The notes beneath the pieces were generated by a model. That model did not search any database, was not told the origin of the DNA, and saw only the letters and a program-made list of their open reading frames with translations. The translations under genes and the position numbers were made by a program. Source: Mumia quercus (GTDB taxonomy: Bacteria > Actinomycetota > Actinomycetes > Propionibacteriales > Nocardioidaceae). From it: 64,000 nt of DNA. Shown piece by piece: positions 3,579-48,392 of this stretch; position 1 is the stretch's first letter, and every line of letters begins with the position of its first letter. Where the stretch lies: the NCBI RefSeq assembly GCF_025506335.1, contig NZ_JANZYO010000002.1, forward strand, positions 420,221-484,220, given 5' to 3'.

Positions 3579-3850
3579 TCAGGCAGTCTTGTCGACGCCA
3601 GCACGTGTCGACAGGAGGTGTCTGCTCATGCCCGCCGCCAGACCGACTGCAAGCCCGCCTACCGTTCCCATTCCGACGGCGAGCAGTCCGTCGCTGGCCC
3701 CATCAATGTCGGCTGCATTCAACGCCGCGAAGATGATCAGGGTCAGACCCCATAGCGGCTTCGGTGATGATGAGCGCCCAGGTGGGCGTCCGAGTCAATC
3801 GGCGCGCGGTCACGCGGGGCGTGAATACTGCGACCGGCCAGGTGACGCCC
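3579..3850 (-). pseudogene. Remnant of a small membrane protein
   Basis: This fills most of a 490-base stretch without an intact gene. One minus-strand frame gives a hydrophobic tail with residues LIIFAALNAADIDG, then a Gly/Ala-rich segment (GLLAVGMGTVGGLAVGLAAG), ending LSTRAGVDKTA and a stop at 3579. The upstream part of the same protein (RTPTWALIITEAAMG) is in another frame, so a frameshift lies near 3740. Two membrane helices are likely. No start is clear and no family is recognised. The pseudogene call fits the other decayed genes nearby, but an independent short gene is possible. Confidence 0.35.
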
Positions 3851-3935
3851 GGCGATCCCGCGATTCGTGGCGCAAATGAGCGCGTCGATCCGCCGCGATG
3901 AGGGAACGCCGTGCCGGCAACCTCAAGGAACACAC

Positions 3936-4879
3936 CTAGGTCACGAGCAGATCCTCGTTGGTCGGGACCGGGTCGTCCAGGGTGCGTGCGTACCAGAGGA
4001 TGTATCCGAGAACGGCGAACAGCCCGACGACGAACGCACCGAAGAGGATCCAGACCCAGCACATTGCAAGGTCCTCGGGCTGTACGACCAGCGCGACGAC
4101 GGGCACCACGATGCCGGCGAGCGAGTACGCAGCCAGAATAAAGACGGCAGCGCTGACCCCGCTGGGACGCCCGATGAACTCGAGCTCGTTCGTGAGGCGC
4201 CGAACCTCGGCGGAAATGAGCGTCCATCGCGCCTCGAGATCCTGTTCCTCCTTGATGGACTCGTCCAGGCGTCGCATGGCGGTGCTGTGCCCGCTGCCGC
4301 TGACGAGAGCCGACGGCCGGATCGTCGGTCCGGAGCGCCCGAACGGATTCCCGGTCTGCCGTTCGGGCAGCTCACACTCGGCGATTCGGTCCACGACCTT
4401 GTCGAAGATCTCGCGGTCTCCTCGCGTCACGGTGAGTCCGCGCTCTTCCAAGTCCGCCATCGACAGATAAGTGTCGTCTTCGGGCCTGATGAACTGTCGA
4501 GCTAGGTGGTCCGCGCCCCGCACCTTCTCAATGAGCTCATCCAGGTACGGCGCCATCTCATCCTCGGAGCTGCCCCTCGGGATGTTGTCCGCTAGCAGCA
4601 CGGCGCGCTCGACATCGCTGGCGGCGGCAACGATGTCGTCAAGAACCCAGTCTCGGAAGTCGTCCATGCTGTTTGCGAGCCGGTAGTCGTGCGCCTCCCG
4701 GTAGGCGGCCTCGACGTGGGCCAGTTCGTCGCCGCTCCGGGCCAACTGTCGGCGCACCGCTCTCGCTCGCTCGACAGAGCCACCAGCCTGCTGACGAGGA
4801 ATCCGCCGACGATGGCAACGATCGCCGCGGACGACTGAGCCAGTGTTGCCGAGAACGTCGTCGGGTCCTGCACTGTCAT
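3936..4879 (-). pseudogene. Membrane partner of the ApeA-like gene, frameshifted
   Basis: The start at 4879 is fixed by an ATGA overlap with the stop of the ApeA-like gene. This frame gives MTVQDPTTFSATLAQSSAA, a hydrophobic helix (AIVAIVGGFLVSRLVALSS), then degenerates. A second frame picks up exactly there (ERARAVRRQLARSGDELAHVE) and continues for ~270 good residues to two C-terminal membrane helices (about 245-270 and 280-305) and a stop at 3936. The frames meet at 4760-4775 in a GAGCGAGCGAGAGCGG slippage-prone run. The intact product would be about 310 residues: an N-terminal helix, a long charged helical middle (possible coiled coil) and a C-terminal membrane pair. The break is a real mutation, a sequencing error or programmed frameshifting. 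Confidence 0.65.
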
Positions 4880-6255
4880 TCCTCGGTTTCTTTAGGGGGA
4901 CGTTCGCCACGCTGCGCAGCGGCGTGCGCGATCTGCCGACCTACTTGGTCCTGCTCCAGCCGTGTTCTCGCCCTGGTCGATGAGACCCCGAGGACAGTCA
5001 TCGTCCAAGCTCGAAAGAGTTGGATGCCGATGCGGTACGCGTACAAGAGTTCTCCGGTAGGCGGGAGCGTTCGGTTGGCGTGCTTCACCGAGTTGTAGGC
5101 GTTGGCGATCTCCTCCGGCCAGTCGGAGGTGTCGAACGGAAGGTAGGTCTTCACCTGGTCACGGAGGCGGGCCAGACGGACAGCCAGCGGCTCGTCCTTG
5201 GCGGCCCGGCGGCTCACGCCGGCCTCAAGGGCCAACTTGTAGCCGAGCGCCTCGAGTCCCATCCCGAGCTGGGCAACGTGAATCTCGAGGCTGGCGCCCT
5301 CGAGCTCGAGGAGCTTGAGAATTGGTTGGAGGACGCGCGCCTCGTCCATGTGGAGTTTGAGCCACCGGCCGAGACCCGCTTGGGAGACGTCGTCGTAGTG
5401 AAAGGTGAAGTCGAAATGACGGACCTTGGTCGGTACGCCTGTCTGTCCGGTCAGGGCGGTCTCGACCGTTCGCCACTCGATCCCGTGAGTCTTCCCGTCG
5501 AGGGTGCGGAGTCCGTCGTCGCTTCGCATAGCTTCGTGGGTGACGAAGTTGAGGCGTTGCCAGGACGCCAGCCGCACGACGTCTCGGATGGCGAAGTGAC
5601 GGTTCAAGTGAACGTCCCACTCGGTCGCCGTTCGTGCGGTCGTCTGCACGAACATCCTCTCGGCGATCACGGTCTCGTCGGGATGCTCGCCTGGTCCGAA
5701 CCTGTACGACGGGCGGATCTCTAAGCGCGGATTCGTCCCGACCCGTACTGCGTTTGGAGCACGGAGCCGTAGGACTGCGGTCGCCAGCCGGCCGTCTTCG
5801 TCGAGCTCTCTATCGGTGCTGAGGCTTCTTAGGCCTACCCAGGTGCCGAGCCCTTCGACCTCAGAGCGAAGTCCGTTGAGGTGTTCGTAGGCGCTCGCGT
5901 CCTGGGCGCCAAGAACGGCGAACCGGATCGACGCGTAGCCGATGCCGACGTTGAACCCGAGATTGCTCCGGTGGCCGCTCGCACGGCATCCCACGAGCGC
6001 CACAGGACCATCTGGGTCGACAAAGGCGATTTGGGGTGGCACTTCGTAGCGGTAGCGCACTTGCTCAGGGTCGTCACCCCAGTGCGCCTGGACGAACCAC
6101 CGTTGGTGTTCAGGGTTGTACTCGCCGTTCCACGGCAATGACATGCGGATACCACCGGGCGTCCTCTCCAGTTGGACGGCAATGTGTGGTGAGTCCTCGA
6201 TGCCGTCATAGATGAATCCCAGACGGACCTGACCCTCAGCGAACTCGTTGGGCAC
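4876..6255 (-). CDS. ApeA-like protein with HEPN-type C-terminus
   Basis: A 459-residue protein with a GTG start. Residues 1-~290 match my recollection of the ApeA N-terminal domain, a beta-rich module found in anti-phage proteins (GFIYDG, SLPWNGEY, VALVGCRASG, LGAQDASAYEHLNGL). Residues ~300-430 are helical and contain ANAYNSVKHANR near residue 400, the place where HEPN domains of this group carry the R/K-x(4-6)-H RNase motif. The usual RN pair is not evident, so catalysis is uncertain. ApeA proteins act in abortive infection. It is translationally coupled to a membrane protein, suggesting a two-gene sensor/effector unit. Confidence 0.7.
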   Translation of the reverse strand: MPNEFAEGQVRLGFIYDGIEDSPHIAVQLERTPGGIRMSLPWNGEYNPEHQRWFVQAHWGDDPEQVRYRYEVPPQIAFVDPDGPVALVGCRASGHRSNLGFNVGIGYASIRFAVLGAQDASAYEHLNGLRSEVEGLGTWVGLRSLSTDRELDEDGRLATAVLRLRAPNAVRVGTNPRLEIRPSYRFGPGEHPDETVIAERMFVQTTARTATEWDVHLNRHFAIRDVVRLASWQRLNFVTHEAMRSDDGLRTLDGKTHGIEWRTVETALTGQTGVPTKVRHFDFTFHYDDVSQAGLGRWLKLHMDEARVLQPILKLLELEGASLEIHVAQLGMGLEALGYKLALEAGVSRRAAKDEPLAVRLARLRDQVKTYLPFDTSDWPEEIANAYNSVKHANRTLPPTGELLYAYRIGIQLFRAWTMTVLGVSSTRARTRLEQDQVGRQIAHAAAQRGERPPKETEE

Positions 6256-14225: not shown

Positions 14226-14269
14226 TGGTCTCGATACGCCCTCCGCTCGCGCTCCGGGCTACTCGACCA
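14226..14269. repeat. REP-like element between nrdA and nrdB
   Basis: A 44-base element beginning TGGTCTCGATACG and ending CTACTCGACCA, the same unit found four times (two per orientation) near 48.2-48.4 kb. It lies in the 80-base nrdA-nrdB gap, 8 bases after the nrdA stop. Only one half of the palindrome is present. It would be transcribed within the nrd mRNA. Confidence 0.75.
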
Positions 14270-35869: not shown

Positions 35870-36550
35870 TCAGGACGGCAGCTTGCGGGTGTCGACGAGC
35901 AGTCGGGCGACGGCACGCAGCTTGAGGTTGTGCAGCTGGGAGTAGCGCCGCAGCAGCTCGAACGCGCGGGACTCGTCGAGCTGGTACCGCTCCATCAGGA
36001 TCCCCTGGGCCTGCCCGATCAGCTTGCGCGCGTCGAGGGCGATCTGCAGGTTCTCCTCGCGCTCGGCACGGTGCAGCGCGATCGCCGCGTGCCGGGCGAA
36101 GAGGTGCGCGAACGCGGCGTCGTCCTCGTCGAAGTCGCGCGGGGTCTTCGAGTAGAGGGACACCACGGCGATCCGACGGGACCGCGGCGCCAGGCTCACG
36201 CAGAGCATGCTCGCCACGCCCATCTCCGAGACCGCCTGCGTCCACTGGGGCCACCGCCGCTCATCGCGCAGGTTCCCCGTGCGGAGGGTCTGGTCCCACT
36301 CGTCGCTTCGAGCAGGTCCCTCGCCGAGGGCGACCTGCAGCTCGTCGGCCTTCGTGATGAGATCGTCCGTCGCTGCCACCGTGTCGAGCCGACCCCCGCC
36401 GCGGAGCATCGTCACGCCGCCATAGTCCATCTCGACGGTCTCGCAGAGGTACCGGACGATCTGGTCCGCCGTCTGCTCCGACGACTCTGCCGCATGAAGA
36501 TCTTCCACCAAGTCGACGATCTCGTGGTGATCGAGTGCCTCGTCGGTCAC
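35870..36550 (-). CDS. GAF-ANTAR regulator
   Basis: A 226-residue protein. An N-terminal GAF sensor (about 15-165; ALGEGPARSDEWDQTLRTGN, SLAPRSRRIAVVSLYS) is joined to a C-terminal ANTAR three-helix RNA-binding domain (ARKLIGQAQGILMERYQLDESRAFELLRRYSQLHNLKLRAVARLLV). ANTAR domains bind paired hairpins in mRNA leaders and prevent termination. Both possible starts are GTG (36550 and 36568). It is one of three GAF-ANTAR genes in this window. Confidence 0.9.
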   Translation of the reverse strand: MTDEALDHHEIVDLVEDLHAAESSEQTADQIVRYLCETVEMDYGGVTMLRGGGRLDTVAATDDLITKADELQVALGEGPARSDEWDQTLRTGNLRDERRWPQWTQAVSEMGVASMLCVSLAPRSRRIAVVSLYSKTPRDFDEDDAAFAHLFARHAAIALHRAEREENLQIALDARKLIGQAQGILMERYQLDESRAFELLRRYSQLHNLKLRAVARLLVDTRKLPS

Positions 36551-36707
36551 GTTCGCACCCCCGCGCACCGGATGACGTTCACGATCACGTGAATCGTACG
36601 CGCGAACGGCTCACCAGTCATCTCGGGCACGAAGGGTGCCACCGATGAGTTTCGTCGTGGGGTCGGTCCTCCCTTCGTACGCAGTCCACTGCACCCTGGG
36701 AGCCCAC

Positions 36708-37785: not shown

Positions 37786-38502
37786 ATGGCAGGAGGGCGA
37801 GAGTCCGACGGCGGGTTCGCCGAGCTGGCGCGCTCGCTTCGCGACCAGGCCGACGAGTCCGACACCCTGGACCAGGCCCTCAAGCTCACGGTCGAGACCA
37901 TCGACGGCTGCGACGAGGCTGCGGTGAGCCTCGTCGGGAGAGGCGGCCAGGTCGAGACCCCGCACTCCACCGGGCCGCGAGCGGCGCAGGCCGACCGTCT
38001 GCAGTACACCCTCGGCGAGGGGCCGTGCCTGGACACCATCCGCGACCACGAGACGACGCTCGTGCGCGACCTCGCGACCGACCGGCGGTGGACGAGGTGG
38101 AGCCAGCAGGTCCATCGAGACCTCGGGTTCGGCAGCATCTACTGCTTCCAGCTGTTCACCGCCGCCGACGACTACGGTGCCCTCAACCTCTACTCGGACA
38201 GGGTGGACGCCTTCGACGACAACGACGACGCCGTCGGCTACGCGATGGCCGCCCACATCGCAGTCGCGCTCGCTGCCTCGCGCAAGATCGAGCAGCTCGG
38301 ACGCTCGGTGCAGACACGCACGGTGATCGGTCAGGCGATGGGAATCGTGATGGAACGCTACGGCCTCGACCCGGTGCGCAGCTTCCAGACCCTCCAACGC
38401 GTCTCCAGCGTCACGAACAGGAAGCTCCTCGCGGTGGCCCAGCACGTCGTCGCCACCCGAGAGATCCCCTCCCTGGGCGCCGGCGGGAACCCGGCGGCCT
38501 GA
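37786..38502 (+). CDS. GAF-ANTAR regulator
   Basis: A 238-residue protein. The GAF domain spans ~25-165 (VSLVGRGGQVET, YTLGEGPCLDTIRDHETTLVRDLATDRRW, GALNLYSDRVDAFDDND), then the ANTAR RNA-binding domain (TVIGQAMGIVMERYGLDPVRSFQTLQRVSSVTNRKLLAVAQHVV). The GEGPCLD motif with Cys is typical of GAF sensors in this group. It probably acts as an anti-terminator on a distant leader RNA; no target hairpin is obvious nearby. It is divergent from the 97-residue protein. Confidence 0.9.
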   Translation: MAGGRESDGGFAELARSLRDQADESDTLDQALKLTVETIDGCDEAAVSLVGRGGQVETPHSTGPRAAQADRLQYTLGEGPCLDTIRDHETTLVRDLATDRRWTRWSQQVHRDLGFGSIYCFQLFTAADDYGALNLYSDRVDAFDDNDDAVGYAMAAHIAVALAASRKIEQLGRSVQTRTVIGQAMGIVMERYGLDPVRSFQTLQRVSSVTNRKLLAVAQHVVATREIPSLGAGGNPAA

Positions 38503-39269: not shown

Positions 39270-39496
39270 GCGGTCACTTCCTCCCTGTCGATGGCGGCCA
39301 GGTTCCTGGCCCACCCTTCCTTCGGTCCGTGGACCCTTAGGGACCGCGTGATTCGGAGGTCGCGACCTCATCGCGCCTCCTCCTCAGCGGTCAGGACGCG
39401 TCCCCTCAGCGTGCAGGCCTGCTGGCCGAGGTCGGGAAGCTCCATGCGAGTGCTTCGGAACCCGTACGGCGACGGATTGCTCCGAATTTCGAGAAG

Positions 39497-40432
39497 TTAG
39501 ACGGGCTCCAGGCTCGTCACCGCGTACGCCGTCGCGGAGGTCTCCGCGCCCGCTCCGCACGTCAGCAGCGCGGGCGGCTGCGCGCTCGCCTCGACCTGCG
39601 CCGTGAGGCGCAGCACCTGGCCGTCGCGGCGGACCTCCACCTCGCACGCCCAGGTCTCGTCCGCCACGGGGTGGCCTGCGACGAATCGGACCGCCTCGGG
39701 CGGCAGCGGGCCGTACCGCTCGTAGACGGCGATGACGGCGGCCTGCCCGTAGGGCGGTGCAGAGGCGACGCCGCGCAGGTGCTCGGGCACGACGGCCCCG
39801 CCGAGATGGCTGCCGACCACGTCGACCGCGTTCTCAGCGTCGAGGTTGCCGTACGTGGTCCCTCCCGGCAGCACGACGACGTTGGCGGCGAACCGGTCGC
39901 CGCCAAGGTGGGAACACTCCCACGTCTCTTCGGGCCATCGTGCGGCCAGCGCGGCGGCGACCGGACGCCCGCGCACAGCGCAGCAGACGTCGTGCCTGCC
40001 GTGGGTGCACACGAGCAGCGTCGTACGAGGTGGGCCGACCGTGTCCGACAGCGGCTCGCCGACCACCGCCGCGGCCTCGCGCAGGTCGAGGCTGTCGCGC
40101 CAGGTCCCCCACACCTGACCGCACGCGGGGTCGTCGTCGATGACCGCCCACCGCCGCACGGCTCCCACCGTCTGACGACCGGGACGCCGGATCATGAGCA
40201 GCCGCGCCTGCGCGGAGCGGGCAGCCTTCGCGAGGGCGCCGAGCACGTCGGGGGCGATCGCGTCGGAGGCGAAGGCGTTGAACGGCCATGGGCCGGGGTG
40301 CTCGATGAGCAACCACCGTCGCGCGGGCGTCGCCGTCGCGACCAACGGGTCACCGCGGCGGCGTGCTGCCGTCGCGCACCGGAACGGCTCCGCGCTCGCA
40401 CCTGCGGGAGGCGTCACCCGCTCAGTCGGCAC
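39497..40432 (-). CDS. Sucrase/ferredoxin-like protein
   Basis: A 311-residue Suc_Fer-like protein. The C-terminal half has the family pattern CTHGRHDVCCAVRGRPVAAAL, WECSHLGGDRFAANVVVLPGG and YGQAAVIAVYERYG; the Cys/His residues suit a thioredoxin-like 2Fe-2S ferredoxin domain. The N-terminal half (FRCATAARRRGDPLVATATPARRWLLIEHPGPW) is also typical. In this locus it could pass electrons to the JmjC oxygenase gene it overlaps, though JmjC enzymes usually need only 2-oxoglutarate, so that is speculative. The start is GTG at 40432 (or 40447). Confidence 0.82.
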   Translation of the reverse strand: MPTERVTPPAGASAEPFRCATAARRRGDPLVATATPARRWLLIEHPGPWPFNAFASDAIAPDVLGALAKAARSAQARLLMIRRPGRQTVGAVRRWAVIDDDPACGQVWGTWRDSLDLREAAAVVGEPLSDTVGPPRTTLLVCTHGRHDVCCAVRGRPVAAALAARWPEETWECSHLGGDRFAANVVVLPGGTTYGNLDAENAVDVVGSHLGGAVVPEHLRGVASAPPYGQAAVIAVYERYGPLPPEAVRFVAGHPVADETWACEVEVRRDGQVLRLTAQVEASAQPPALLTCGAGAETSATAYAVTSLEPV

Positions 40433-41696
40433 GGACCACGACCGCACGCGCGAGCAAGCGACGCGCCAGGTCGTCCCCGAGCCTCGCGGCCGCGCACTCC
40501 CCGTGGTCGAGGAGCTCCCGCACGGCGGCGACGTCGGCTGACCCGAGCGCCACGGTGCCGACGCGGCTCACGAGGCGCGCGCCCCGTTCTCCGTCGGCGT
40601 CTTCCAGGACGGGCTGCAGGTGGTCACGCAGCAGGAGGCGGTCGTCGGCCGCAAGCTCTTGCGCTGCGCGAAGCTGCCGTACGGGGCCGACGGGGGCAGG
40701 ACGCCCCGCTGCTCGCGACGCGGCGGCGAGCCGTTCGGCCACGAGGCTCTCGTCGACGCGCTCCAACGCGGCGGCGAGACGCTCGCGTACGAGGGAGACG
40801 TCGCCGCGGACGTCGTCAACGCTCCCCACATCGAGGCCCGCGGCCAGGGAGGTCCGAACCTCGGGGTCGTCGGCGAGCGCCGACAGGACGGCCGCGACGA
40901 CCTCGTTGGCGACCGCGTGCCGCGTCCAGGCGTGGACACCAAGGGTCAGATGGGTGCTCACGTCGCCGAGGGCGGTGGCCGCGTGCAGGTAGCCGCGCGG
41001 CAGGTAGAGACAGTCACCGGGCCGCAGCACCGTACGGATCAGCGGCGGCTCCTCGGCCCGGAGCCTCACCGCCTCTCGGTGGAGCGTCCACGGCTGGTCG
41101 CGCAGCGGCGACTCGAGGACGGGCCGGTGGATGCGCCACTCCTTCTCGCCGCTGACCTGCAGGACGAACACGTCGTGGACGTCGTAGTGGTCGTCGAACC
41201 CCTGGGACTGCGGCGGCGTGACGTACGCGTTGGCCTGCACGGGGTGCCCGAGCTCGCCGGCCAGGTCGGCGACGAAGCGTACGAGCGGCGGCCACGTCCG
41301 GTGGAGTCCCTGAAGGACGAGCGTGGCCCCGTCGGCGAAGAGCGCGCTGAGCCGCGAGTCGTCCGCCTGGTCACCGATGCCCGCTCCGACGCCGGCGCCC
41401 GCGGTGAAGTCGCGGTTCGGCAACGTCGTCCCGTCCCGGGCGACGCGAAGGAACGGAGTCCGTAGGCCGTTCTCGGACAGCAGGGAGTCGACGGCCGCTT
41501 CGTCGAACAGCTCCTCGAACCGGCCGTCTCGCTCCTCGGCCGTGACCAGCAGCGGCTCGCGTCCCCAGGCGACCTCGGCGAACGTCTCGGCCGAGCAGCC
41601 CAGGAGGCGTTCCAGCGGCCGTCGTGCGTCAGCGTCCCGGCGGTGACCGGGGCGCCCCTCGCTGAGGGACGCCCCGCTCGGGTGAACCGTCGTCAT
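40422..41696 (-). CDS. JmjC/ROXA-type Fe(II) oxygenase
   Basis: A 424-residue cupin-fold oxygenase of the bacterial ribosomal-oxygenase type (YcfD/RoxA, relatives of NO66 and MINA53). The double-stranded beta-helix has the iron ligands H170 and D172 (DDHYDVHDVFVLQVSG) and H238 (LPRGYLHAATAL), with a Thr/Lys-rich strand for 2-oxoglutarate. The C-terminal ~150 residues are helical, as in ROX proteins. Known relatives hydroxylate Arg or His in ribosomal proteins. Here the start overlaps the stop of a repeat-peptide gene by ATGA, so that peptide is the obvious candidate substrate, perhaps at its single His per repeat or at Asp. Confidence 0.85.
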   Translation of the reverse strand: MTTVHPSGASLSEGRPGHRRDADARRPLERLLGCSAETFAEVAWGREPLLVTAEERDGRFEELFDEAAVDSLLSENGLRTPFLRVARDGTTLPNRDFTAGAGVGAGIGDQADDSRLSALFADGATLVLQGLHRTWPPLVRFVADLAGELGHPVQANAYVTPPQSQGFDDHYDVHDVFVLQVSGEKEWRIHRPVLESPLRDQPWTLHREAVRLRAEEPPLIRTVLRPGDCLYLPRGYLHAATALGDVSTHLTLGVHAWTRHAVANEVVAAVLSALADDPEVRTSLAAGLDVGSVDDVRGDVSLVRERLAAALERVDESLVAERLAAASRAAGRPAPVGPVRQLRAAQELAADDRLLLRDHLQPVLEDADGERGARLVSRVGTVALGSADVAAVRELLDHGECAAARLGDDLARRLLARAVVVRAD

Positions 41697-41932
41697 GCGC
41701 CGCCGTCGGCCCCGCCGTCGGCACCGCTGTCGGCGCCACCGTCAGCACCACCGTCGTGGACACCGGGGACACCCTCGGCACCCCCGTCCGCGGGACCCTC
41801 GGCGCCGCCGTCGGCACCGCCGTCGGCACCGCTGTCGGCACCGCCGTCAGCACCACCGTCGTGCACGCCGGGGACGCCCTCGGCACCCCCGTCCGCGGGA
41901 CCTTCCGTGGACTCGGGATCGAACTCGCTCAT
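41693..41932 (-). CDS. Two-repeat Asp/Gly/Ala-rich peptide, candidate precursor
   Basis: A 79-residue peptide: head MSEFDPEST (9 residues), then two identical 35-residue units with no linker, ending in the second unit. Each unit starts EGPADGGAEGVPGVHD and then runs through D-G-G-A repeats with one D-S-G-A variant. Each unit has one His and no Cys, Lys, Arg or aromatic residue. It is strongly acidic and unlikely to fold. The gene has an excellent AAGGAG site and an ATGA overlap with the JmjC oxygenase gene. I suggest it is a precursor modified by that enzyme. The alternative is a low-complexity acidic protein, perhaps calcium-binding. Confidence 0.78.
   Translation of the reverse strand: MSEFDPESTEGPADGGAEGVPGVHDGGADGGADSGADGGADGGAEGPADGGAEGVPGVHDGGADGGADSGADGGADGGA
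41696..41905 (-). repeat. Tandem 105-bp coding repeat, two copies
   Basis: Two head-to-tail 105-base units (41696-41800 and 41801-41905), each coding for one 35-residue peptide unit. They differ at eight bases, every one a third codon position on the coding strand, and every one silent. The encoded peptides are therefore identical. Confidence 0.9.
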
Positions 41933-42059
41933 GGTGATCTCCTTCCGCCCGCGCCACCAGGCGCGCTCGATTGATGTGGGCTCGCTGCGGACAGGTCGCC
42001 CGAAGCTCCATCCTCAGGTGACATTCCCCGGAGCCGCACGTCGAAACCCCTCGTGCACC

Positions 42060-43085
42060 TCAGAGGGTGAGGAGCACCTTCGTGGCGAGCCTCTGGTCCA
42101 TCGCTCGATACCCCTCGGCCGCCTCCTCCAACGGAAGCGTCAAGTCGAACACCCGACCGGGATCGATCGTCCGGTCTTCGATCAGCGAGAGCAGCTCCGG
42201 AAGGAAACGCCGCACGGGGGCGGGGCCGCCGTGCAGGTGCACGCTGCTGAAGAACAACGGAAGCCCCTCCAGCTCGACACCGTGCGAGACGCCGACATAT
42301 CCGACGTAGCCACCCGGTCGCGTCGCTCGGATGGCCTGCCACATCGACTCCTGCGTGCCGACTGCTTCCACGACCCCGTGAGCGCCGTACCCGCCGGTGA
42401 GTGCCACGACCCTCGCCGCGCCGTCGTCCCCGCGCTCCTCGACGACGTCGGTAGCGCCGAACTCGCGCGCCAGCGCCTGCCGCGCGGGGTGGCGGCTGAA
42501 CGCGACGACGCGTTCTGCCCCGAGCTGGCGCGCGGCGAGAACCGCCGAGAGACCGACGGCACCGTCTCCGACGACGGCGATCGTCTTGCCCGGACCGGAC
42601 GCTGCAGCAACCGCTGCGTACCAGCCTGTCCCGAGGACGTCGGAGGCGGCGAGCAGCGAGGGGACGAGGTCGGCGCTCGGCGGCCCGGCGGAGGCGACGA
42701 GGGTGCCGTCGGCCCACGGGATGCGGGCCCGCTCCGCCTGGGTTCCGATCGCCCCCATCATCACCTGGTGGACGCACCGAGACTGATAACCCGCACGGCA
42801 GATCTCGCAGGTGTTGTCGGACGCGACGAAGGAGCCGACGACGAACGCGCCGACGTCGACGCCTCGCACGTCCGGGCCGACCTCTTCGACCACGCCCACG
42901 TACTCGTGACCCATCGGCGCCGGCGTCGCCGCCAGCGACTCGAGCCCGCGGTACGGCCACAGGTCCGAGCCGCAGATGCACGTCGCGGTGACACGGATGA
43001 CGGCGTCGGTCGGCGCGACGATCGTCGGGTCCTCGCGCTCCTCGGTACGCACGTCACCGGCGCCGTACATCATGACTCCGCGCAT
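42060..43085 (-). CDS. Zinc-dependent alcohol dehydrogenase (MDR family)
   Basis: A 341-residue medium-chain dehydrogenase. Catalytic-zinc ligands are visible as C (TCICGSDLW), H-E (PMGHEYVG) and a structural Cys cluster (DNTCEICRAGYQSRCVHQ, one Cys short of the usual four). The NAD(P)-binding loop is TIAVVGDGAVGLSAVLAARQLGAERVVAF. It oxidises an unknown alcohol. ATG at 43085 follows AAGGAG; a longer start (43115) is less likely. It lies 127 bases upstream of the repeat-peptide gene on the same strand, and whether it belongs to that operon is open. Confidence 0.88.
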   Translation of the reverse strand: MRGVMMYGAGDVRTEEREDPTIVAPTDAVIRVTATCICGSDLWPYRGLESLAATPAPMGHEYVGVVEEVGPDVRGVDVGAFVVGSFVASDNTCEICRAGYQSRCVHQVMMGAIGTQAERARIPWADGTLVASAGPPSADLVPSLLAASDVLGTGWYAAVAAASGPGKTIAVVGDGAVGLSAVLAARQLGAERVVAFSRHPARQALAREFGATDVVEERGDDGAARVVALTGGYGAHGVVEAVGTQESMWQAIRATRPGGYVGYVGVSHGVELEGLPLFFSSVHLHGGPAPVRRFLPELLSLIEDRTIDPGRVFDLTLPLEEAAEGYRAMDQRLATKVLLTL

Positions 43086-48152: not shown

Positions 48153-48371
48153 GCTACTCGACCACCGGAACCTGGCTGGTCGAGTAGGGCGGAGCGCCAG
48201 CGGAGCCCGTATCGAGACCACGCCGGTCTCGATACGCCCTCGCCCAGCGGCTCGGACTACTCGACCACCCAACCGTCCGCTGGTCGAGTAGGGCGGAGCG
48301 CCAGCGGAGCCCGTATCGAGACCACGCGGGTCTCGATACGCCCTCGCCCAGCGGCTCGGGCTACTCGACCA
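48153..48371. repeat. Tandem REP-like palindromic array
   Basis: Two ~104-base copies, each made of TGGTCGAGTAGGGCGGAGCG...TATCGAGACCA (48177-48220 and 48281-48324) followed by the near-inverted GGTCTCGATACGCC...CTACTCGACCA (48225-48267 and 48329-48371). A further CTACTCGACCA lies at 48153. Each copy can form a long cruciform or RNA hairpin. A single arm also lies between nrdA and nrdB. Such elements are known in several actinobacteria as intergenic repeats; a role in ending transcription of the flanking TetR gene is possible. Confidence 0.85.
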
Positions 48372-48392
48372 ACCACAGGACCGCGGCTCGGC

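Follow-up and report, generated by a model that had tools for sequence, protein, structure and literature searches.

An acidic tandem-repeat peptide encoded with a NO66-like JmjC oxygenase in Mumia quercus and its relatives: a candidate peptide-modification module

A 64,000-nucleotide stretch of the Mumia quercus genome (Actinomycetota, Nocardioidaceae; assembly GCF_025506335.1, contig NZ_JANZYO010000002.1, positions 420,221 to 484,220 of the forward strand; hereafter the window, with positions counted from its first letter) encodes a short acidic repeat peptide, a JmjC-type Fe(II)/2-oxoglutarate (2OG) oxygenase and a sucrase/ferredoxin-like (Suc_Fer) protein. All three genes lie on the minus strand and each overlaps the next. 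Our main finding is that a repeat peptide of this kind is encoded at the start of the oxygenase gene in nearly all loci of one JmjC subfamily. The enzyme appears to be an intact 2OG oxygenase, and no other gene accompanies it as strictly as that of the peptide. Most economically, the two are read as an enzyme and its substrate. We consider it quite likely that the peptide is the substrate of the JmjC enzyme. On balance, we also favour the broader view that the locus is a compact module resembling those of ribosomally synthesised and post-translationally modified peptides (RiPPs), in which the peptide would be oxidised by the JmjC enzyme.

The peptide gene, the proposed precursor or substrate gene (41693–41932), codes for 79 residues: a nine-residue head, MSEFDPEST (41906–41932), and two 35-residue units of identical protein sequence, EGPADGGAEGVPGVHDGGADGGADSGADGGADGGA (unit 1 at 41801–41905, unit 2 at 41696–41800). 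Translation and comparison of the units thus bear out the description given in the initial annotation, and the gene overlaps proposed there are also present. A Shine-Dalgarno-like AAGGAG (41939–41944) lies 6 nt ahead of the peptide ATG. The sequence ATGA at 41693–41696 combines the peptide stop with the start of the JmjC gene (40422–41696; 424 residues), which in turn overlaps the Suc_Fer gene (39497–40447; 316 residues, GTG start) by 26 nt. Tandem Repeats Finder reports the 105-nt unit with 94% matches; direct alignment of the two units shows 8 differences over 105 sites, every one at a third codon position and synonymous. The genome contains one match to the JmjC protein of the window.

The association was scored in three samples, which overlap (the pairs L019/L136, L020/L153 and L013/L141 each share one JmjC gene sequence). 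A search of 294 genomes of the family gave 155 with a JmjC homologue at E ≤ 1e-20, of which 29, the window's own among them, were close (E ≤ 4e-99) and 126 were weaker; upstream open reading frames (ORFs) were read in all 29 close genomes and in 43 of the 126. A phylum sample of 396 genomes had a homologue in 57, and 59 loci were read, 56 of them scorable (L102, L112 and L124, at contig edges, were set aside). From a named collection, in which at least 561 relatives were confirmed, the best 80 loci were kept, with 35 genus or higher-rank labels; 78 were scorable, L150 (contig edge, DGGADGGS and then a stop visible) and L210 (N-masked) being set aside. A single rule defined the peptide: an acidic, low-complexity ORF with repeated tripeptides, ending between −150 and +160 nt from the JmjC start. 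Such a peptide was found at 29 of 29 close homologues (window included), at all 43 weaker homologues read, at 41 of 56 loci of the phylum sample and at 76 of 78 named loci. The same rule was satisfied by 1 of 1,393 control ORFs, these being other mechanically called ORFs of at least 250 residues from the sequence flanking the 80 named loci, many of which will not be genes. The thresholds are not blind, since the rule, like the leader pattern discussed below, was devised once many peptides had been inspected; the control was run under the same rule.

The 15 misses of the phylum sample are eight distant JmjC homologues without a peptide (L120, L122, L123 and L125–L129; 29–37% identity), six loci with acidic repeat or near-repeat ORFs that are visible by eye and fall below the threshold (L091, L098, L100, L106, L108 and L121), and L073. 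The two misses of the named set are L200 and L184. Peptide linkage is a trait of the subfamily, distant JmjC homologues being without it. JmjC genes without a repeat peptide, which the initial annotation had named as grounds for refuting its reading, do exist among relatives: those of the eight distant homologues and, within the subfamily, those of L200 and L073, while L184 retains a short remnant. For two repeat patterns the association was also checked in the opposite direction, and it held. Two or more copies of DNA encoding [HQ]DGGADG, on one strand within about 300 nt, were found in 28 of the 29 genomes with a close homologue; the last of these (G293) has one match, at the array. None of the 265 other family genomes has such a cluster, their matches being isolated and dispersed. 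DNA encoding TDGDATDT was found in 34 of 155 JmjC-positive family genomes compared with 0 of 139 JmjC-negative ones, and 46 of its 47 matches are located no more than about 300 nt from a JmjC match (compared by eye). The 47th lies on another contig of G166, for which 6% contamination is listed. Among viral contigs, searched for close relatives of the JmjC protein, 12 stretches matched a search pattern and none encodes a relative.

In total, 189 peptides were extracted, at least three of which are doubles because of the identical locus pairs. Type I peptides (117) are built of DGGA repeats, often EGPADGGA-x-PGV[QH]DGGADGGA. Type II (72) is a rest class of everything not DGGA-type and is mostly GDADGTDGDATDTTDGD-like; it includes a third and a fourth core type, ADGTDQGVxGGTYGPRD in L094 and PTEDDENLDAPGEHSQDTGDE in L118, both with the same leader-like motif as other type II peptides. 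At least four core types thus occur with the enzyme family. Peptide type follows the enzymes: on a FastTree tree of 211 enzymes it changes 7 times, compared with a mean of 70.9 after shuffling (0 of 200 shuffles as low). For ten rows the state was set by hand (L094 among them, as 'not counted'), and we take the clustering as support only, because near copies inflate it and several long branches are unsure. Repeat number varies as well. The GPADGG-type units of type I peptides number from 0 to 8 (mode 3), and 43 of 58 enzyme pairs with at least 85% identity (three pairs being the same genome twice) have peptides unequal in length, lengths that depend on starts chosen by a script with a preference for ATG behind a Shine-Dalgarno-like sequence. 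Conserved linkage with varying repeat number, which the initial annotation had put forward as a test, is indeed what the subfamily displays.

A low-complexity, GC-rich ORF overlapping the next gene might be a translational leader, or a by-product of the GC-rich repeat, with no functional peptide. The codons speak against this. When consecutive EG[PTV]ADGG units with a likeness of 70% or more were compared, synonymous codon differences numbered 1,091 and non-synonymous ones 211, the likeness condition itself favouring synonymous changes. Since synonymous differences dominate though most single-base changes are non-synonymous, we take the peptide to be under protein-level selection. A Shine-Dalgarno-like sequence precedes 174 of the 189 chosen starts (the start choice favoured such starts), and the peptide persists across the widely labelled named set, so that we regard the leader or by-product explanation as scarcely credible. 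A chance or non-coding repeat was also considered and is ruled out by the control ORFs and the codon differences.

The JmjC protein of the window matches JmjC_2 (PF08007) with an E-value of 5e-26 and 91 bits (cut-off 22). H170 and D172 (H170-x-D172, 41181–41189), H238 (40983–40985) and K185 are invariant in 31 diverse aligned members, window included, and in the 44 of a closer set. From the JmjC family in general we take H170, D172 and H238 to be the first, second and third Fe ligands, intact at the positions initially proposed; K185 is presumably the 2OG-binding Lys. An AlphaFold2 model (44 sequences; predicted local distance difference test, pLDDT, 92) has a double-stranded beta-helix fold, for which the best Foldseek match is human NO66 (E 9e-23; template-modelling (TM) score 0.66 by query), followed by MINA53, YcfD and YxbC. 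Judged by these tests of sequence and modelled fold, the enzyme is an intact 2OG oxygenase. In the model, residues 353–385 form strands and residues 386–416 helices (block-mean pLDDT 90 to 98), which suggests a winged-helix-like C-terminal domain (residues 353–422; 40431–40640), possibly akin to the leader-binding RiPP recognition element (RRE). NO66 has a C-terminal winged helix. A basic residue stands at the position of R207 in 95% and at that of R413 in 92% of peptide-linked enzymes (alignment of every second one), and in none of the distant homologues aligning there (6 and 7 sequences). We propose that the repeat peptide would be the dedicated substrate of this translationally coupled oxygenase, and that its N-terminal part would be bound by the enzyme, probably through the winged-helix, RRE-like domain together with basic residues, for instance R207 and R413.

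Two claims of the initial annotation bear on this proposal. The label 'ROXA-type' is right for the fold, NO66 being nearest, while nothing was found that ties the enzyme to ribosomal proteins. The implied role of the peptide as substrate gains from a coupling that holds while length varies, for which a dedicated substrate is the simplest explanation, though the substrate relation itself is one that we infer. The strongest competing view casts the peptide as a partner, such as an acidic chaperone, inhibitor or adaptor, and has the enzyme modify some other protein, for example a ribosomal one, as NO66, MINA53 and YcfD do. These ribosomal oxygenases are its nearest relatives in both fold and sequence, the extreme acidity of the peptides (net charge −9 to −44 among the 189) could mimic nucleic acid or fill a basic cleft, and overlapping frames suit co-assembly. 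Nevertheless, we think a mere partner unlikely: tandem repeats of varying copy number better suit many sites per chain, the core types found with the enzyme family are several, and a gene present in only 155 of 294 family genomes would be odd for a ribosome modifier.

If the peptide is the substrate, the enzyme would oxidise at least one residue per repeat, most likely at the beta carbon of Asp. Asp beta-hydroxylation is favoured because no peptide lacks Asp and each contains it repeatedly: at least two Asp residues lie beyond residue 25 in 189 of 189, and two or more Asp-Gly steps occur in 184. Gly and Ala are nearly as common (at least two beyond residue 25 in 187 and 188 peptides, respectively), so the choice of Asp draws on chemistry, and we regard it as an even call. 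According to the relevant passage of PMC9994133, FIH, another JmjC enzyme, is able to oxidise Asp and His in addition to Asn. The other candidate residues are less widely shared: His occurs in 109 of the 189 peptides, Lys and aromatic residues in 20 each, and Cys in 1. The enzyme might still be a NO66-like His hydroxylase that targets the H of VHDGGADG, with His-free peptides being degenerate or modified elsewhere. Its closest solved relatives are His hydroxylases, and H is the most frequent residue before DGGADG (H 206, A 112 and Q 85 of 432). Yet 80 of the 189 peptides, including 53 of 72 of type II, have no His while the catalytic residues are unchanged, and in relatives' peptides Q stands in place of H at the same site, which makes a dedicated His hydroxylase improbable. 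Hydroxylation of His as a general target, one of the two options in the initial annotation, is not supported by this comparison; as a universal target, His is ruled out by the His-free peptides.

Several observations weigh against the picture of a dedicated, Asp-oxidising peptide module. L073 is a close homologue (46% identity) with an acidic ORF that has no clear repeats. L200, from Piscicoccus, has an enzyme of the subfamily and neither an acidic repeat ORF nor any recognisable peptide. In L184 only a short in-frame end is left (ADGHAGPGGDGGADGPAE), a remnant, on a contig that begins 307 nt upstream of the match. The leader-like motif around LxDEDIxT, a pattern devised after inspection, marks most type II peptides (65 of 72; shuffled mean 0.33) and few of type I (13 of 117), the other 104, window peptide included, being without it. 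Of the 78 named loci, 12 have no Suc_Fer gene, and the peptide is encoded at 10 of these 12. The recurring ORF clusters listed for the 80 named loci (flanks of up to 6 kb) include no conserved peptidase or transporter; dedicated peptidases or exporters are common in RiPP clusters, albeit not universal. Finally, the closest characterised enzymes, NO66 and MINA53, are narrow His hydroxylases, as the pertinent part of PMC9994133 describes them, and do not predict Asp.

As to the recurring clusters themselves, one of ABC ATPases spans 8 labels among the 80 loci, but its positions are scattered and on both strands. Most recurring minus-strand clusters appear, from where they lie, to be antisense shadows of JmjC and Suc_Fer. 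A wider conserved cluster with an exporter or protease was rejected, none being found among the listed ORF clusters of the 80 loci. In Piscicoccus intestinalis (L200, about position 5932) there is also no Suc_Fer gene, and a DVDHRDVDHRDVDNRD stretch occurs in another frame at the gene start.

The Suc_Fer protein of the window matches PF06999 (2e-20); C147, C155, C156 and H180 are invariant and C178 is conserved in at least 90% of 23 sequences. Its model shows a weak match to thioredoxin-like [2Fe-2S] ferredoxins, those of Azotobacter (FeSI) and Aquifex (E 2e-3 to 1e-2; TM score by target 0.69–0.70), from which it differs by an additional C-terminal domain. Suc_Fer is probably a thioredoxin-like [2Fe-2S] protein with putative cluster ligands. 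Among loci with 300 nt or more of sequence, the gene lies directly downstream of the JmjC gene in 26 of 26 close, 43 of 43 weaker, 42 of 58 phylum-sample and 66 of 78 named loci, and the eight distant peptide-less homologues are also without it. Suc_Fer is common rather than obligatory, because peptide-bearing loci lack it too, as in Terrabacter, Humibacillus and Terracoccus. It may keep the iron centre of the JmjC enzyme reduced or donate electrons to it, a redox role that we rate a little below even.

The product of such a module would be a polyanion rich in beta-hydroxy-Asp, and probably intracellular because no conserved transporter or peptidase was found nearby. Beta-hydroxyaspartate siderophores bind metal, and this, together with composition, is the basis for guessing that the product might bind Ca2+ or Fe3+, a role we hold to be doubtful. 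Alternatively, the unmodified peptide could serve as a metal or cation buffer, with the JmjC and Suc_Fer genes only co-regulated in a shared iron or oxygen response. Asp-rich repeats in every peptide and neighbours that are ferredoxin-like and Fe(II)-dependent would agree with a buffer; but co-regulation by itself would call neither for a peptide type that tracks the enzyme tree nor for the lack of clustered arrays, for the two patterns tested, in enzyme-free family genomes. We therefore judge a simple buffer to be highly improbable. Returning to the modified peptide, the most ambitious proposal is that of a new and widespread class of ribosomal peptides with at least four core types, in which a dedicated NO66-like JmjC enzyme, working with a ferredoxin-type partner, oxidises Asp to beta-hydroxyaspartate on many repeats. 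The products would be tunable metal-binding polyanions inside the cell, with repeat number setting how much metal they can bind. We offer this proposal tentatively, with more doubt than confidence.

How does the proposed module compare with known systems? NO66 and MINA53 (RIOX1/2) share the JmjC fold and the HxD...H triad and are the nearest solved structures by both sequence and fold, NO66 being 23–24% identical to the window enzyme in the fold alignment; we know of no repeat-peptide partner for either. Their substrates differ, being His residues of Rpl8 and Rpl27a in the account of PMC9994133 that we draw on. BipG and PbsQ, of biphenomycin-type RiPPs, are also enzymes of JmjC or cupin-like type whose substrate is a ribosomal peptide. 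As described in PMC12707348 and PMC12257519, ornithine is hydroxylated there and the clusters are multi-enzyme, with a multinuclear non-haem iron-dependent oxidative enzyme (MNIO), a radical S-adenosylmethionine (rSAM) enzyme and a protease. The JmjC-RRE proteins of fish and algae (Bregman et al. 2025, PMC12710340) belong to the same Pfam family, PF08007, and their closest bacterial homologues (~30% identity) are reported by the authors to occur in RiPP-like genomic contexts. The main-text passage on them names no precursor, repeat or Suc_Fer partner, and overlap with the peptide-linked family is possible. Two further systems are described in PMC13097080. With SmaO/SmaX, a graspetide enzyme pair for Asp beta-hydroxylation and aminomalonate formation, Asp of a ribosomal peptide is also oxidised, with the modification located at the peptide N-terminus; this comparison is by description only. 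Corallotide (CorA/CorC) has a large precursor in which a 2OG oxygenase hydroxylates each of five repeated motifs, whereas its graspetide synthetase acts first, its oxygenase belongs to PF13640 and its target is Lys (PMC13097080).

JmjC enzymes are thus already known as RiPP tailoring enzymes. As far as our literature searches reach, the minimal peptide–JmjC–Suc_Fer module with acidic tandem repeats is undescribed: no description of these peptides was found, most subscription papers being outside the search, six peptide motif strings gave no paper, and the main text of PMC7470986 contains no cupin, Jmj or oxygenase terms. The window peptide has no match in Pfam or NCBIfam, and of the peptides compared with models none matched NCBIfam (0 of 6) or Pfam (0 of 5). 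Such a system is easily overlooked, because the peptides are of low complexity and those tested match no model. To our knowledge, few natural substrates of bacterial NO66-like JmjC oxygenases have been identified. A peptide encoded beside the enzyme in nearly all subfamily members examined makes the question of the natural substrate directly testable. If the peptide is modified, the locus would be a compact two- to three-gene peptide system in Streptomyces, Arthrobacter, Nocardioides, Brevibacterium and many other genera, and would provide a hydroxylase that acts at many sites of a known repeat substrate.

Upstream of the distant JmjC gene of L123, a short ORF, MSDIQKNAPETASEEPGLEIEDEELEALSGGLEVI, resembles a double-Gly RiPP leader and ends about 543 nt before the estimated JmjC start, so that other RiPP clusters may be served by distant JmjC relatives. 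On a plasmid of Pseudanabaena galeata (L214), a JmjC homologue lies about 2.8 kb from a gene for a LanM lanthipeptide synthetase. On a plasmid of S. clavuligerus (L213), an annotated hypothetical protein of 48 residues, rich in Asp (3850–3996), is encoded about 90 nt upstream of a JmjC/cupin homologue that shares 35.5% identity across 60% of the query. It contains a leader-like stretch, SLEPDEIEVI, and is a lead only because the leader pattern is not matched.

Regulatory signals were sought as well. A scan for sigma-70 promoters and terminators found none in the window at 39300–42200. In four group alignments of the regions upstream of the peptides, conservation was group-specific only and no known regulator box was recognised. 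The conserved blocks seen ahead of the peptide start codon in Nocardioides and Arthrobacter-group loci, e.g. CTATACAC and TTCGATTCTCGGGAGGAAGC, are possible promoter or 5′ untranslated region elements. Elsewhere in the window, a two-copy 104-nt repeat (48154–48375, with a further occurrence at 14227) contains GGTCTCGATACG in inverted pairs; this sequence has 5 matches in the window compared with 0.01 expected, and the repeat looks like a dispersed palindromic element. Two GAF-ANTAR regulators are encoded about 1.2 kb apart on opposite strands, at 35870–36568 and 37786–38502.

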